In this document: in pieces, positions 1,083 to 12,160 of the stretch | Numbering within the stretch: the first letter of the stretch is position 1 | Layout of the letters: each line of letters starts with the position of its first letter | NCBI RefSeq assembly: GCF_000021965.1 | Contig: NC_011832.1 | Coordinates: 1,488,001 to 1,552,000, forward strand | DNA: 64,000 bases | Reading direction: 5' to 3' | From: Methanosphaerula palustris E1-9c | GTDB lineage: Archaea > Halobacteriota > Methanomicrobia > Methanomicrobiales > Methanospirillaceae | Notes under the pieces: generated by a model | The model's input: the letters and a program-made list of their open reading frames with translations, nothing else | The model's database searches: none | What the model was told of the DNA's origin: nothing | Program-made: the position numbers and the translations under genes

Positions 1083-1343
1083 ATGCGAACGCCCCTTGTT
1101 CTACTCAGTCTCTTACTCTGTGGCCTCCGGATCGCCGGCTACACGTCGTCACCGAATACGACAACGGCATCCACACCTACAACACAAGCGCTCACCACTG
1201 ACACATCGGCCCCGGTCTCCATCACCCTGGCTGACATCGAAATGATAAAGCCGGCGCTGGAGTCCCCGACCTCCTCACCAGAGAATGTGAATGCATACCC
1301 GAAAAGAGATCGGGTTCATTCCTGCGACCTCTTCACCACATAG
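1083..1343 (+). CDS. short exported Thr/Ser-rich protein, possible decayed lipoprotein
   Basis: This 86-residue ORF begins with a hydrophobic signal-like stretch (RTPLVLLSLLLCGLRIAG) followed by a Thr/Ser-rich linker, the usual start of methanogen lipoproteins. The residue after AG is Tyr rather than the lipobox Cys, one base change (TGC to TAC) from a functional site. No domain is recognisable after the linker. The last 28 bases overlap the 3' end of the convergent acetyltransferase, so the C-terminus may be an out-of-frame tail. It could be the 5' remnant of a larger secreted protein gene, or chance. Confidence 0.35.
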   Translation: MRTPLVLLSLLLCGLRIAGYTSSPNTTTASTPTTQALTTDTSAPVSITLADIEMIKPALESPTSSPENVNAYPKRDRVHSCDLFTT

Positions 1344-1873
1344 AGGAGGGTTCCTTCTTCCATCCCCTCTCCACCGCCGGTCGTACCTGCCGGAAGGAAG
1401 CCTGTCTTCTCCAGAACCCGGATCGAAGCCTTCAACGCCGGGTAGGTGGTGGCAACGATCTGCCGGATCTTCGAGGACTGAAAGATCACCGGGATCAGGC
1501 TACGGAGCGCCTCGGTTGCCAACCCTCTGTTCTGGAAGGCGTCGATCACCGAGTATCCGATCATCACAGCGTCGGGTGCTGTTGGATACGAACAGAATCC
1601 GCTGCTGCCGATGAGGGTACGGGTCCTCTCTTCCGGGTCGGTAAAAATCCAGTACCACGAACTGAAATTGGGATCGGACCCGTCCGCCTGGATCCGGACG
1701 AATTCGGCGAGTGCTTCATCGTCAAGGAGCGGAGGAGGCCAGGCGCCGGGAATAGTCGCGTCGAGGAGCCTGCCGAGTTCCTCAGAATCGTGATGGAGAT
1801 CGCTCGTGAGAATCTCCTGACCGGCCGGTACAAGATCAAGCCTTTGTGTGTGAATGGTGAGTGATGATATCAT
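1316..1873 (-). CDS. GNAT-family N-acetyltransferase (RimJ/RimL type)
   Basis: The protein (about 185 residues from the ATG at 1873) begins TIHTQRLDLVPAG, the typical first strand of RimJ/RimL-like acetyltransferases. It contains the GYSVIDAFQNRGLATEALRS region, which is the acetyl-CoA pyrophosphate-binding motif A, and ends with the usual VLEKTGFLPAGTT strand. Family members transfer an acetyl group from acetyl-CoA to an amine on a protein or small molecule; the substrate cannot be deduced. The frame is open upstream to 2029, but the extra 52 residues do not resemble the family, so the internal start is preferred. It is probably monocistronic and convergent with the short ORF at 1083. Confidence 0.85.
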   Translation of the reverse strand: MISSLTIHTQRLDLVPAGQEILTSDLHHDSEELGRLLDATIPGAWPPPLLDDEALAEFVRIQADGSDPNFSSWYWIFTDPEERTRTLIGSSGFCSYPTAPDAVMIGYSVIDAFQNRGLATEALRSLIPVIFQSSKIRQIVATTYPALKASIRVLEKTGFLPAGTTGGGEGMEEGTLLYVVKRSQE

Positions 1874-2340
1874 GGGAATCAACGGGTTCCTGTCTACCTG
1901 GAGGTAAACTATTGGGCCGATGTCACAAATCCTTTTTCGGAACTGCTTCCCCTGAACCGATCGGGATCCGGAAATCTCCACCTGACGCCTTTTTGATAGA
2001 GTACCGATACCGATGACCTGGATGCACACGTCAGTACAGGTACCCGCGCCCTCAATGCAGACTATTGCGGCGTTGCCGATCTCTCATCTGCTCATGATAG
2101 TGAAGAGCCTGCAAACAATTTCCCTATAAAAAATGGGCACGTTGAAGAAAAACCGGTATGCAACGAGATAACCTGATATCATATTCAATCAGAGCGATCT
2201 CCGCGTCTGTCTTCCACATCGTCACAAAGGGCAACCAATATATCTGAGCATCCCCTGTCATTCACTGGAGGATATTCATTTTCCACCTGACACATCCCAT
2301 GCGAAAGCCTGGATGGGCACCTGAATGGCCGCAGAAGAGT

Positions 2341-3282
2341 ATGAGGAGTGTCATCTGGTATCTCCTGCTCATCATCGTTGCGGTCGCCCTGATAGGAATT
2401 CCGGCATCGGCCCAGGACCAGGTGAACGCGTCTGCCCAGATTCAGGAACCAGCCGTGGTTCATATCGGTCTCTTTGTCGTGGATTTCAATCGGTATAATG
2501 TCGCGGAAGGGACGGTCGAAACGAATTTTTACCTGCATCTCCGCTCTGATTCGCCCGTCTCTATCGATGACTTCGAGATCATGAACGGGCAAATAACGAC
2601 GATCGATACCATCCGTGATACCCCGAATGAAAAGAATTACCGGATCTATGCAATCATAACCACCGACCCCAATCTCCTTCACTACCCCTTTGACAATCAT
2701 ACGATCCCCATCATAATTGAACCGAAAGTTCTCTCCGACCAGTCGGAGGTGATGGTGATCGACAGAGACAGCACCGGCCTCGACACGGATGCCGACCTCC
2801 TGGGATGGACGTTCACCGACACCTGGCATTCGATAACAAATAAATCCTATGAAGAGAACGGGACACCGTATTCCCGGGCAGTCTTCAGTTACGGCATCCG
2901 GAGAGACAGTGCGTCGACCATACTGAAATTCTTCCTGCCAATCCTGCTCATCATCATTGTAACCCTCTCCTCTCTTATGATGAAGACCACATCCCGGCTT
3001 GGACTGAACGCCTCGATGTTCCTGGCTGCCGTGATGATCCACTGGCGGATTGCCGATGCGATACCGCTCGTTGGCTATGTAACCTTTTTGGATTTCTTCA
3101 TGATCATCACCTATGCGACGCTGGTCATGGTACTCGTATCCGGAATCCTGATCATGAAGTTCGCAGAGATCAAGGATTTGATTCGGGTTGAACAGGTGTA
3201 CCACTGGTCGATCCGCATCATCCCGGGGATCTCGATCGGATTATACGTCCTGCTGTTTCTCACGCTCATGATACCCGCCTGA
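2341..3282 (+). CDS. pentameric ligand-gated ion channel homologue (Cys-loop-like)
   Basis: Counting from the upstream in-frame ATG at 2299 (327 residues), the order is: a signal peptide ending SAQD near residue 40, an extracellular beta domain about 45-205, and four membrane helices at about 208-227, 237-250, 261-286 and 306-325. The loop YPFDNHTI (129-136) matches the conserved Pro-loop ([FY]PFD) of the Cys-loop receptor superfamily. As in bacterial GLIC and ELIC the disulfide cysteines are absent. Helix M1 carries the conserved Pro (KFFLP). Family members are homopentameric ion channels gated by ligand or protons. The ATG at 2341 puts the signal peptide at the terminus and is preferred; neither start has a strong ribosome site. 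It stands alone, with no partner gene. Confidence 0.85.
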   Translation: MRSVIWYLLLIIVAVALIGIPASAQDQVNASAQIQEPAVVHIGLFVVDFNRYNVAEGTVETNFYLHLRSDSPVSIDDFEIMNGQITTIDTIRDTPNEKNYRIYAIITTDPNLLHYPFDNHTIPIIIEPKVLSDQSEVMVIDRDSTGLDTDADLLGWTFTDTWHSITNKSYEENGTPYSRAVFSYGIRRDSASTILKFFLPILLIIIVTLSSLMMKTTSRLGLNASMFLAAVMIHWRIADAIPLVGYVTFLDFFMIITYATLVMVLVSGILIMKFAEIKDLIRVEQVYHWSIRIIPGISIGLYVLLFLTLMIPA

Positions 3283-3470: not shown

Positions 3471-4910
3471 CTACAGGGTAGTAAACAATACAACGATATC
3501 ATTGAAATCAATCCGGCCGTTTCTGTCGAAGTCGAATGCAGTGACCGGCTCGTAATCTGCGATCCAGTCCATCTGGTTGAAGAAGAGGACCACGTCATTG
3601 AAGTCGAAAACACCGTTGCCGTCGAGATCCTCGTAGAGCCCGTCATGGTTGAGGTCCTGAGGAGTGTTGACCGAGGGGGATATCGACGGCATCGGGACGA
3701 CGGCGACCGAGACCTGGTGCGTACTGCTGTACCCGGCCGCAGTGAACGCCTGCAATGCTACCGAATAGGTACCCGCAGTCGTATAGGTGTGCGATGGGTT
3801 CTGGAGTGTTGATCCTGCGGGCTGGAACCGCCAGGTATCGTTCTGGCCTCCACCCCCCATCACCACAATGCTGCCATCCGTCATCGCCACACAGCCTAAA
3901 CGGGCCCGTGGCGACCACGCGGCATCCGGCAACTGCGTCCAGGTTGCACCGTCATCGATCGACCGCCACACATCATTCCAACCGACGGGCCCATCACCGC
4001 CCATCAGCACAATGCTCCCGTCCGGCATCGCGACGCATCCATGCCATCTCCTCTCCTCCCAACTGGCACTCGGGGTCATCTCAGTCCAGGTGAGACCCCC
4101 ATCGGTCGACCGCCACACATCATTCTTCCAGGTGCCATCTAATTCGACGCCGGTCGTGAGTACGATGCTGCTGTCCCGCGTCACGACGACGGTGAAACAG
4201 GATCTCGGCGACCACGCGGCATCCGGTAACTGTGTCCAGGTTACACCGAAATCGGTCGACCGCCACACATCGTTCTGATTGCTGTTCCCGTCATACCCGC
4301 CCATGAGTATGATGCTTCCGTCCAGCATCGCGACACTGCTCTGTTCGATTCGTCCCGACCACCCGGAACTCGAGTTCTGCTCTGTCCACGTTCTGCCGTT
4401 ATCAGTCGACCGCCAGGTGTCGTTCAGAAAGGTACCGTTGCCGTAACCGCCCATCAGCACGATACTCCCGTCTGGCATCGCGACACAGCTCTGTTCGGCT
4501 CGTCCCGACCACCCGGAACTCGGGTTCTGCTCTGTCCACGTTTTGCCGTTATCGGTCGACCGCCAGGTGTCGTTCAGATAGGTACTGTTGCCGTAACCGC
4601 CCATCAGCACAATGCTTCCGTCCGGCATCGCCACACTTCGGATATACCCTCGCTTCGACCATCCGGAACTCGTATTCTGTTCTATCCACGGTTGCGTATA
4701 GGTCTCATCGCCGAAGAACCATGCCCAGCCGGTCGGACTGCCGGTCGAGGTGTCGGTGAAGTTCACGGTCAGGGGGACGGTGCCGAAAGCCGGCGTGCTG
4801 GTGAACGCCGCTATCGGGGCTGCAGCGCTGGCAGTACCGACAAGCAGCAGAAGAGCTGCAATTAACAGATATACTGTCCTCGCAGGGACCAATGTCTGGT
4901 GATCGTTCAT
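3471..4910 (-). CDS. secreted PKD protein with inserted Kelch-like propeller and C-terminal dockerin
   Basis: The protein has 479 residues. A signal peptide (1-30) precedes the first half of a PKD domain (about 31-75, ending WAWFFGDE). Six repeats of about 48 residues follow (76-365), each with VAMPDGSIVLMGG and NDTWRSTDNG-type motifs, like a six-bladed Kelch/BNR propeller. The second half of the PKD domain (NPSHTYTTAGTYSVALQAF, about 370-405) comes next, so the propeller is inserted into one PKD fold. Residues about 420-479 are a type I dockerin-like module with two Ca-binding loops (DLNHDGLYEDLDGNG and DFDRNGRIDFND). Role: cell-surface or extracellular adhesion or assembly, inferred. A TATA-like box lies about 40 bases upstream. 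Confidence 0.85.
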   Translation of the reverse strand: MNDHQTLVPARTVYLLIAALLLLVGTASAAAPIAAFTSTPAFGTVPLTVNFTDTSTGSPTGWAWFFGDETYTQPWIEQNTSSGWSKRGYIRSVAMPDGSIVLMGGYGNSTYLNDTWRSTDNGKTWTEQNPSSGWSGRAEQSCVAMPDGSIVLMGGYGNGTFLNDTWRSTDNGRTWTEQNSSSGWSGRIEQSSVAMLDGSIILMGGYDGNSNQNDVWRSTDFGVTWTQLPDAAWSPRSCFTVVVTRDSSIVLTTGVELDGTWKNDVWRSTDGGLTWTEMTPSASWEERRWHGCVAMPDGSIVLMGGDGPVGWNDVWRSIDDGATWTQLPDAAWSPRARLGCVAMTDGSIVVMGGGGQNDTWRFQPAGSTLQNPSHTYTTAGTYSVALQAFTAAGYSSTHQVSVAVVPMPSISPSVNTPQDLNHDGLYEDLDGNGVFDFNDVVLFFNQMDWIADYEPVTAFDFDRNGRIDFNDIVVLFTTL

Positions 4911-4953: not shown

Positions 4954-5031
4954 ATGTTTTAAAATTCTTGTTGATCAACAGGGAGAGAAGCGTAAATATG
5001 AGTTTTTATGGCAGAAAAACCCAGTAATACT

Positions 5032-5586
5032 ATGAGAAAAACAACAATCTCATTGCTGGTCGTACTCATCATCGGCGCATCCCTTGTCATCGCCGGCTGC
5101 GTACAGAACCAGCCGGGTGTCACCGCGTCAACGCCGGTAAAGAATGATACACTCCAGCAGGGAAATTATACCTCCAATGCAACGCTCGTCGCCTTTGTCG
5201 ACGAAGCGGTCGCCTATGCAAAAGCAAACGGCAAAGAAAAAGCCCTTGCCGAATTCAACAACCCGAACGGCTCCTTCGTCAGAGGCGAACTGTATATCTA
5301 CGCCTATGACTTCAACGCTACGACCCTCGCCCACCCGATCAACCCGGAGAAGGTCGGCGTCAACCGCTGGAATGAGACCGAGGGGGACGTGGGCCCTGTT
5401 CTCCAGAATATGAGTGCTCTGGCCAGGAATGGAAGTTTCTACTACCCGCTCACATATATCAACCCCGCCCACAACCGGACGCTCGAATCCAAACTGGCGT
5501 ACGGGGAGAAGGTGGACGATACCTGGTGGCTCGGTTCCGGGATCTACACGGGGCCAGTAGATCAGGCATCAGGGAACCGGACCTGA
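5032..5586 (+). CDS. single-Cache-domain lipoprotein
   Basis: From the ATG at 5032 the protein starts with a signal peptide ending LVIAGC, so the Cys would be lipidated. After a short linker there is one sCache_2-like domain of about 120 residues: a long helix (VAFVDEAVAYAKANGKEKALAEF), the FVRGELYIYAYDF strand, LAHPINPEKVGVNR, and a closing DDTWWLGSGIYTGP strand. Cache domains bind small extracellular ligands, usually as sensor parts of chemoreceptors or kinases; this one has no cytoplasmic output. It closely resembles each of the three domains of the lipoprotein at 10619-11977. An in-frame ATG at 5008 would add eight residues. Confidence 0.85.
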   Translation: MRKTTISLLVVLIIGASLVIAGCVQNQPGVTASTPVKNDTLQQGNYTSNATLVAFVDEAVAYAKANGKEKALAEFNNPNGSFVRGELYIYAYDFNATTLAHPINPEKVGVNRWNETEGDVGPVLQNMSALARNGSFYYPLTYINPAHNRTLESKLAYGEKVDDTWWLGSGIYTGPVDQASGNRT

Positions 5587-9572: not shown

Positions 9573-10586
9573 TTATTTTTGAACCGATGAAGCACGGGAC
9601 AGAAGATACCGGGCTTCCCCTGCCTGGGCCTGCGGTTCCCATGCATTGACTGTTTCGTTATAGGATGTAAATTTCTGGTTGAACACCAGGCCGGTCACCC
9701 CTTCCCTGAGCCCGGCCACCTGTTCGCCACCGGTGAACGTCCCGTTGAGGTCCTGCATGATCCCGGTAGAAACGACCCGGTCCACCCGTTTGACTGCCGA
9801 CGCAAGCACGACGTTGGGGCCGAGCGGGGACTGGTCGGAATCGGTGCCGATGATATACTCCCCGGTTGCATTGTTTGCCACCGCAATCGCCCCGGTATTG
9901 GAGTACCCGGCACAGGTGTAGATCACGTCCGTTCCATTGCGGTACATCCCTTCAGCAATCCGGCCTGACTCTGCGGGATCGCTGAACCCGTCGATGGTGT
10001 ACTGGTGCACATAGGTATGATCGATGGGGATCGATGCGTTGACAGCATGGACGCCGGCCGTGTACCCCTGCAGGAACGTATCGAGCAGGTCCGACTGCAT
10101 CCCAAGGATGATCCCGACCCGCCCGGTCTTGGTTGCCGATGCTGCAAGGACGCCGGCCAGGTAACTGTCACCGTAGGAGGTGATATCATACGTCCTGAGT
10201 GTATCGGACCCGGTTCCCGACTGGTCGATGGCGAGGAACCGGATATCCGGGTGATCCTGTGCGAGCTGCCGGGTGTAGTTCGTATACTGGAACCCTATCG
10301 TTATGACGAGACCCGGTTTTTCCGATCCGCTGATGTTGTTGAGCAGCCCTGGCAGGGAATCACTCTCACGCGGCATGAACTCTTTTGTGGTAAAGGAGAT
10401 CGCTTTCTGGGCTGCCACGAGACCCTGATATGCACTGTCGGTGTACGAGAGGTCACCTTTCTCTGATGGGTACACGATATACACGCCCGGAACTGCAGGT
10501 TTATCCGGCAGGACACTTACTGCAACGATTGCTACAACAATGACTGCTGCAACCAGGATTCCGAAATAAAGGTATTTTTTATCCAT
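9573..10586 (-). CDS. BMP-family (PnrA-like) substrate-binding protein, membrane-anchored
   Basis: The protein has 337 residues from the ATG at 10586, which follows GGTGGAGAGATATC, a good ribosome site; longer starts are less likely. A single N-terminal membrane segment (about 5-25) without a lipobox anchors a periplasmic-type domain with the BMP features: GVYIVYPSEKGDLSYTDSAY, SYLAGVLAA and GIILGMQS, then GTDSDQSPLGPNVVLASAVK near the C-terminus. Family members bind nucleosides or similar ligands for ABC importers or act as receptors. No permease or ATPase gene is adjacent. It lies 32 bases downstream of the triple-Cache lipoprotein, so both are probably co-transcribed as extracellular ligand binders. 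Confidence 0.82.
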   Translation of the reverse strand: MDKKYLYFGILVAAVIVVAIVAVSVLPDKPAVPGVYIVYPSEKGDLSYTDSAYQGLVAAQKAISFTTKEFMPRESDSLPGLLNNISGSEKPGLVITIGFQYTNYTRQLAQDHPDIRFLAIDQSGTGSDTLRTYDITSYGDSYLAGVLAASATKTGRVGIILGMQSDLLDTFLQGYTAGVHAVNASIPIDHTYVHQYTIDGFSDPAESGRIAEGMYRNGTDVIYTCAGYSNTGAIAVANNATGEYIIGTDSDQSPLGPNVVLASAVKRVDRVVSTGIMQDLNGTFTGGEQVAGLREGVTGLVFNQKFTSYNETVNAWEPQAQAGEARYLLSRASSVQK

Positions 10587-10618
10587 GATATCTCTCCACC
10601 GTGATGATTGTCTGATCC

Positions 10619-11977
10619 TCATCCCCTCAGGTTGGCCGTGTTCGGCTCCAGGTACCGGCCGGCGCCGAGCATCCAGGTACCGTCGACATCGGTCACGTAA
10701 CTGATCTTGAGCTGGGTGGTGTTCGTCGCCGGGTTCACCGAGTAATACTCGACCATCCCGGTTCCATTGCGAGCGCTTGCGAACATGGTCTGCATATAGT
10801 ACGATCCGTCCAGGTCAGTGACATTGATCCGGTTCACGCCGACCTGGTCGGGGCGGGACGGCCATGCAAGGGCGGTTCCGTTGTAATCGTCGGCGAAGAT
10901 ATAGAGGCCGTCCTTGACGAAGGAGCCGTTCGGGTTGTTGAATTCGGCGAGTGCTTTTTCTTTACCGTTGGTCTTCGCGTAGGCCTTCGCATCCGTCACG
11001 AACTGCCGGAGTTCCTGATCGATCAGCAGATCTTCGCGGGTATAGATGCCGGCACCGATCCAGTAGGTATCGTCGACCGGACGCACATAACTGACTTTAT
11101 ACCTGACCGAGTAATTCTCAGCCGGGTTCGGGTACCGGTACAGGAGATAGCCGCCGCCGAGCTTGGCGAGCTGGACCTCGGTCTTGGTGTAATAAGTACC
11201 GGACGCGTCGGTGAGGTTGAGGAAATTGGTGCCGACAAGGTCCGGCTGGTGCAGCAGGGCGAGGGCGTTCCCCGAATAGTCGAGCGCGTAGATGTAGACA
11301 TCGCCGACTGCAAACGGACCGGTGGCGTTACTGAACGCAGCAAGAGCGGCAGTCTTTCCATGCTGCTGAGCATAGGTCGCAGCAGAATCCACAAAGTCCT
11401 TGATCTCCCGGGAGGTCGAGGGAGCATCTGGCGCTGATGCTTCGACCGGTTCTGCGGGGCCGTAATAGACGCCGGAGCCCAGCCACCAGTCGTCACTGAC
11501 TTTTGTCACGTACCCGAGTTTCTTCTCGACTGAGTTGTTGTGCAGCGGGTTGACGTAATAGAACCAGACGTACCCGGAGCCGTTTCGCGCTACATCCATA
11601 ACATTCCGGAAGTAGGGGTGGCCGTACGCGTCGGGTTCGTCGGCCCGGTTCACGCCGACCTTCTCTGGACTGTACGGGTGGGCGAGGGTGGTGCCGTTGA
11701 AGTCATAGGCATAGATGTAGAGTTCGCCCCGGACAAACGAACCGTTCTTGTTCGAAAATTCAGCGAGCGCTGCATCTTTGCCATAGGTCTTAGCGTAGGC
11801 GGCCGCTTCGTTGACGAAAGCGACCATCGTTTCATTCGTTGTAGTAGTGATGGTGGCTGCTTTCTCCTGGGTAACCGGAATTTTCGTGGATGATGATGAA
11901 GTCTGGGTACATCCGGAAGCGATGACCAGCAGGGCGAGAACGATAAAGAGGGATAGGGATGCACATCCCGGTTTCAT
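10619..11977 (-). CDS. lipoprotein with three tandem Cache domains
   Basis: From the ATG at 11977 the protein is about 452 residues. A signal peptide ends LVIASGC (lipobox Cys), followed by a Ser/Thr linker and three sCache_2-like domains of about 125 residues. Each starts with a helix such as AYAKTNGKEKALAEFNN, continues with a LYIYAYDFNGT-type strand and a VGVNR or VGTN turn, and ends in a WWLGSGVYYGP-type strand. There is no transmembrane helix after the lipid anchor and no signalling output, so it is an external ligand-binding protein. It is first in a likely operon with the BMP-type protein. A longer frame from 12031 adds 18 residues and spoils the signal peptide. Confidence 0.88.
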   Translation of the reverse strand: MKPGCASLSLFIVLALLVIASGCTQTSSSSTKIPVTQEKAATITTTTNETMVAFVNEAAAYAKTYGKDAALAEFSNKNGSFVRGELYIYAYDFNGTTLAHPYSPEKVGVNRADEPDAYGHPYFRNVMDVARNGSGYVWFYYVNPLHNNSVEKKLGYVTKVSDDWWLGSGVYYGPAEPVEASAPDAPSTSREIKDFVDSAATYAQQHGKTAALAAFSNATGPFAVGDVYIYALDYSGNALALLHQPDLVGTNFLNLTDASGTYYTKTEVQLAKLGGGYLLYRYPNPAENYSVRYKVSYVRPVDDTYWIGAGIYTREDLLIDQELRQFVTDAKAYAKTNGKEKALAEFNNPNGSFVKDGLYIFADDYNGTALAWPSRPDQVGVNRINVTDLDGSYYMQTMFASARNGTGMVEYYSVNPATNTTQLKISYVTDVDGTWMLGAGRYLEPNTANLRG

Positions 11978-12160
11978 GTATAGTGATGGTTCATGATTTT
12001 TATTAAAGTGGGATGATGTATTCCGGGACAATTTTCGAGAATGATTCCCATTTTTCGGTCATTTCGTATTCGAGCACCATTCACCACCAGTCCGGCTTTC
12101 GGCACAGTACCCCTTGGTGGATTCATCGACCCGCCAATGCCGTCTTCACGGCGTTATTCT

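Follow-up and report, generated by a model that had tools for sequence, protein, structure and literature searches.

The gene at positions 2299-3282 of the window, a stretch of 64,000 nucleotides of the Methanosphaerula palustris E1-9c genome (2.92 Mb, single contig), encodes a member of the superfamily of pentameric ligand-gated channels (pLGICs), also called the Pro-loop superfamily. This membership is taken as established from the matches in sequence, family profile, signature residues and predicted fold. All four agree with the first-pass annotation, which had proposed an archaeal homologue of neurotransmitter-gated channels. Taken as a whole, we consider it highly probable that the protein would act as a homopentameric pLGIC with a pore formed by M2, which is gated by the outer domain and is not cation-selective.

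The open reading frame proposed earlier was recovered with the same boundaries, strand and ATG start (Table 1). Codon differences between the channel gene and its relatives are concentrated at third positions and the dN/dS ratio against five relatives is 0.19-0.29, corresponding to purifying selection; this indicates that the frame is more than a chance frame. An antisense frame (2185-3204, minus strand) was rejected as a gene since relatives do not preserve it: stops interrupt it in 5/5 relatives examined, the fewest, a single one, being present in L008. Among the viral contigs searched, no relative of the channel was found.

Table 1. Positions within the window of the channel gene, its parts and the genes nearby.
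Feature	Position	Strand	Basis
pLGIC gene, complete ORF including stop	2299..3282	+	ATG, 327 aa; homology, fold, codon evidence
N-terminal signal sequence, residues 1-41, cut likely after ASA (PASA↓QD)	2299..2421	+	predicted helix 14-37, PxSA conserved in relatives
Compact extracellular beta domain, residues 42-202, about 160 aa vs about 192 in GLIC	2422..2904	+	model strands, profile-GLIC alignment, alignment gaps
DFEIMNG motif, D91-G97	2569..2589	+	invariant columns; loop A assignment inferred from alignment
Pro-loop YPFD, residues 129-132	2683..2694	+	clade alignment
W170, conserved beta9 core tryptophan	2806..2808	+	alignment; Table 1 of PMC4795631
R202, pre-M1 arginine, expected partner of D132	2902..2904	+	alignment; Table 1 of PMC4795631
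M1 helix 204-225, conserved P214	2908..2973	+	alignment and model
M2 pore helix 230-254, then P256 (23')	2986..3060	+	alignment and model
M3 helix 263-290	3085..3168	+	model
M4 helix 294-324	3178..3270	+	model
GNAT acetyltransferase, channel-flanking	1316-2029	-	
Kelch/PKD protein, channel-flanking	3471-4910	-	
sCache_2 lipoprotein-like gene, 192 aa, possible sensory partner	5008..5586	+	PF17200 E 3e-12

On the sequence level, the protein matches the NCBIfam models TIGR00860 (ligand-gated ion channel family LIC, E 8e-8) and NF033918 (E 1e-4), both far under the curated cut-offs. A phmmer search against the sequences of the PDB identified DeCLIC (E 6e-11), sTeLIC (E 2e-7) and wild-type GLIC (E about 1e-6). 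A family profile built from 24 relatives, which are 43-74% identical to the channel protein, matches GLIC with an E-value of about 1e-19 from the Pro-loop region through M4, and the beta1-beta2 stretch aligns with GLIC in order, at a low score. The single-chain AlphaFold2 model obtained with 38 homologues has a pLDDT of 86 and a pTM of 0.71. Using this model, Foldseek returned GLIC (E 6e-20, TM 0.72-0.77 by query length) and sTeLIC (rmsd 3.4 Å over 311 columns). An earlier model from 24 sequences (pLDDT 77) matched the same fold, but its domains were poorly oriented (TM about 0.5), which improved due to the deeper alignment.

Seven residues define the superfamily (Table 1 of Jaiteh et al., 2016, PMC4795631). 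All of them are present, namely Y129, P130, D132, W170, R202, P214 and P256, as are R0' and L9'. Within the clade six are found in 23/23 sequences, while position 129 is either Y or F, so that the [F/Y]PxD motif is retained in the beta6-beta7 loop. The overall layout read from the letters in the first-pass annotation was borne out as well: a putative signal peptide, seen in the model as a hydrophobic helix running up to the PxSA motif; a beta-rich extracellular half, predicted as a nine-strand beta domain; the YPFD loop; the M1 proline; and the four helices of the receptor pattern. In the model and by Foldseek, a beta-sandwich outer domain is followed by four helices, as in solved members. The absence of a Cys pair extends to the whole translated protein, which has zero cysteines. 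The pair flanking the Pro-loop of eukaryotic receptors is therefore lacking, and strictly speaking the channel does not belong to the Cys-loop receptors.

The expected matches to Pfam PF02931 and PF02932 did not appear, since no Pfam model matched the channel protein. Their absence had been named beforehand as a reason to give up the assignment; it did occur, but is outweighed by the NCBIfam hits and the sequence, profile and fold searches against the PDB. On the 24 relatives both models gave weak best E-values (0.0078 and 0.096), and a genome-wide search with PF02931 had no match in the host genome, but carries no weight, the control likewise being without a match. The Pfam LBD model does match the DeCLIC-like archaeal channels (E about 1e-12), and the miss is probably caused by the shortened outer domain of the clade.

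This shortening can be located in the 24-member profile, where GLIC residues 46-100 are represented by only 28 positions (72-100). The deletion extends from the end of beta2 to the invariant DFEIMNG motif, of which D91, N96 and G97 are invariant within the clade. As a result, the segment from beta2 to loop A is absent and the outer domain falls short of that of GLIC by about 30 residues, while DeCLIC-like archaeal channels keep this segment in full in the alignment. From the alignment, DFEIMNG (DxExxNG) would correspond to loop A of the superfamily (WxPDxxxxN), and the missing stretch to the WxDxRL/loop D-beta3 connection, leaving a mature outer domain of about 160 vs. 192 residues. The conserved charged and aromatic residues K112, R115, E141, Y184, Y191 and R193 of the outer domain might form a putative pocket for an acidic ligand, which is offered as a lead only.

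The pore of the clade is nearly fixed (S/T-2', S-1', R0', G2', S6', L9', L/M13', I14', H15', W16', R17', D20'), with R0', S6', H15' and W16' being invariant; the channel itself carries S-1', R0', G2', S6', L9', M13', H15', W16', R17' and D20'. Throughout the 23/23 clade sequences, -2' is S/T/A, -1' is S/T/I and 2' is G/S/V/L, so the stretch from -2' to 2' is free of acidic residues. According to PMC9897478, every known cation-selective pLGIC has an acidic ring at the cytoplasmic pore mouth (-2'/-1' or 2'), and its absence here makes a cation-selective pore unlikely by current rules. Together with the presence of R0' and R17', this argues for a pore that passes anions or is weakly selective rather than a cation-selective one, although pore-mouth positions are insufficient to predict selectivity in prokaryotes (PMC4795631). 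A hydrophobic gate is predicted at L9' and W16'; the closed form of DeCLIC has its constrictions at L9' and F16' (PMC9897478).

The anion-selective Cys-loop receptors for glycine and GABA (GABA-A) likewise lack the -1' glutamate, and Foldseek lists them too. The R0' G2' spacing and L9' of the channel match the anionic PAR-G motif. In contrast to these receptors, the channel has no Cys-loop cysteines, S-1' instead of A-1' and no long M3-M4 loop, and the identity is low. This is a resemblance and not a membership.

The proton-gated GLIC of Gloeobacter violaceus shares with the channel the Pro-loop, the beta9 tryptophan, the pre-M1 arginine, the prolines of M1 and of the M2-M3 connection, the short M3-M4 linker and the absence of a cysteine loop. 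However, the two are only about 15% identical in the structural alignment and, unlike GLIC, the channel has no acidic residue at its inner pore mouth (S/T-2', S-1', G2') and has W16' and R17'. DeCLIC and the DeCLIC-like archaeal channels (e.g., L071, L084) belong to the same superfamily, with the signature residues and an aromatic residue at 16', and the archaeal ones come from the same order, Methanomicrobiales. They differ by large N-terminal additions, a full-length outer domain and D/E at 2', whereas the channel has 327 aa without extra domains and falls into a separate clade. The DeCLIC-like set (L071, L072, L074-L077, L079-L084, L086-L090) comprises proteins of 620-690 aa and one ORF of 877 aa, and in two of the long N-terminal regions that were tested Pfam recognized no domain. 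Other archaeal Pro-loop receptors (PMC4795631), including the pLGICs of Methanosarcina (PMC549065), are Cys-less as well. The latter, compared here by their description, are fused to MCP-N and Cache regions, in contrast to the bare channel with at most a separate sCache gene in its vicinity.

Within the class, strong matches (E below 1e-40) are present in 26/232 genomes, all of the window's own family within the Methanomicrobiales; named relatives come from Methanoregulaceae, Methanoregula and Methanospirillum MAGs. Searching 393 genomes of the phylum with the 24-row profile also placed the core clade in this family only, matches in other families being few. DeCLIC-like proteins occur in other families of the Methanomicrobiales and in one genus of the window's family, and compact and DeCLIC-like forms are found together in 0 of the 232 genomes. 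One genome (G181) carries two channel copies; another (G190) has only a broken copy (L030 / L053, G190:C1:1544203-1545048) with frame changes and a stop, which is apparently decaying. A tree built from the stretch between Pro-loop and M4 supports the core clade with 97/99 and joins the DeCLIC-like group to DeCLIC with 99/98, while GLIC and two divergent rows from outside the window's family (L062, L064) lie on long branches, where their placement is unsafe.

Some members of the family have a divergent second pLGIC-like paralogue (L067:1480-2469, L031, L032, L049:7393-8526), which keeps W.DP, has a YPFE Pro-loop and a longer M1-M2 linker, and in most cases lacks the pre-M1 arginine. It accompanies the core form in G158 and occurs by itself in G179 and G174. 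Furthermore, a protein of 731 aa in genome G422 (L066:1387-3579, minus strand) combines an N-terminal dCache_1 domain with a C-terminal channel-like part containing YPID; the channel profile gives only a weak match to it (E 1e-7), and it resembles the Cache-fused channels reported for Methanosarcina.

Mechanistically, five identical subunits would assemble around a pore whose lining is formed by M2, and the outer domain would bind a small molecule or ion from the extracellular side. The signal would then be passed on via the contact of D132-R202, the Pro-loop and the M2-M3 connection (P256) to open the hydrophobic gate at L9' and W16', and the open pore would let anions pass or select weakly.

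As to the stimulus, the protons, amines or acids suggested in the first-pass annotation are guesses. Direct gating by pH or divalent cations without an organic ligand, as in GLIC, sTeLIC or DeCLIC, is a real possibility, if somewhat short of even chances. The top fold and sequence matches are the proton-gated GLIC, the alkaline-gated sTeLIC and the calcium-inhibited DeCLIC; furthermore, H134 is found beside the Pro-loop in 21/23 sequences and H15' is invariant. Nevertheless, the stimulus is not conserved within the superfamily, so the closeness to GLIC is not predictive, and the clade stands apart from both GLIC and DeCLIC in the tree.

A second candidate for the stimulus comes from the neighborhood. 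The first-pass annotation regarded the channel as a lone gene, which holds insofar as both flanking genes lie on the opposite strand, and the channel is therefore probably transcribed alone. However, the window has an sCache lipoprotein gene 1.7 kb downstream of the channel, and such a gene is also close to the channel in some relatives, though not in most; it recurs in four of the 20 channel loci compared. Genes of the same group lie downstream on the same strand at 0.5 kb in G194/G195 and at about 2.5-2.6 kb in G181, while neighbors are otherwise almost never shared between channel loci. With one orthologue of this group per roughly 2.9-Mb genome, it is very unlikely that chance placed it there independently in three lineages. 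For prokaryotic pLGICs, fusions to Cache domains and one Cache operon have been described and chemoreception was proposed (Tasneem et al., PMC549065), and L066, a weakly related channel-like protein of the same phylum, bears a dCache domain. The sCache protein could thus bind a small molecule and gate or sensitize the channel, like fused Cache domains might. We consider this unlikely: inherited gene order suffices for the linkage and no functional link is needed, as it may be a leftover of ancestral gene order. Moreover, the linkage is absent in at least 6 other genomes. The sCache relative is encoded elsewhere in the genome in G193, G167, G192, G196, G160 and others, and the sCache search was without a match in G158, G140, G135 and G190, which carry the channel gene. 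The opposite-strand Kelch/PKD gene in between also precludes a shared transcript. The sCache gene is a reasonable candidate partner of the channel, not more.

The product of the intervening gene, a secreted protein, contains Kelch/BNR repeats and a PKD domain, and a stretch at its C-terminus resembles a dockerin (DLNHDGLYEDLDGNG...FDFDRNGRIDFNDIV). A conserved operon was rejected, as besides the channel no gene family is common to more than 6/20 loci compared. A PnrA/Bmp-like binding-protein gene (9573-10622, minus strand) was set aside as partner, being near the channel in G181 but elsewhere distant or absent. It adjoins a gene for a protein with repeated sCache/dCache domains (10619-12031, minus strand), and an sCache-Bmp pair is also found near the channel in G181 (L050).

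A more far-reaching proposal, that the clade is a minimal pLGIC branch which has lost the beta2-to-loop-A segment with loop D of the usual ligand site, with an anion-passing or unselective pore gated at W16' and a signal received via the sCache protein or another pocket, is in its full combination rather improbable. That the protein is a membrane sensor of pLGIC fold which no longer conducts and became a signaling or scaffold protein is more doubtful still: the outer domain without the beta2-to-loop-A segment, the bulky, invariant W16' and the lost signature residues of divergent relatives (YPFE, no pre-M1 Arg) would fit, but the core clade retains every coupling residue and the R0'/S6'/L9' pore pattern, the gene is under purifying selection, and DeCLIC, despite its F16' constriction, is reportedly activated by calcium depletion (PMC9897478).

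Knowledge of archaeal pLGICs dates back to 2004, when they were reported for Methanosarcina (PMC549065), and ten new archaeal genera were added in 2016 (PMC4795631), so this kind of channel is not new. The earlier view that prokaryotic members are rare, with few archaeal ones described, is in part dated, since 55/232 genomes of the class have a match at E <= 1e-4. The literature search found no paper describing the compact clade, although the supplementary lists of PMC4795631 may already count some of its members, no paper describing a pLGIC with such a shortened outer domain and no paper naming Methanosphaerula palustris or methanogens together with pLGICs.

According to PMC4795631, the pLGICs of unicellular organisms are all without a known biological role. 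The channel described here is small, lacks cysteines, is encoded by a single gene and has numerous close relatives among sequenced methanogens, which makes it practical for structural studies and electrophysiology. If the pore is anion-selective, it would serve as an archaeal test case for the origin of charge selectivity, and should the shortened outer domain still be able to gate the pore, this would narrow down the parts of the ligand-binding domain that are indispensable.
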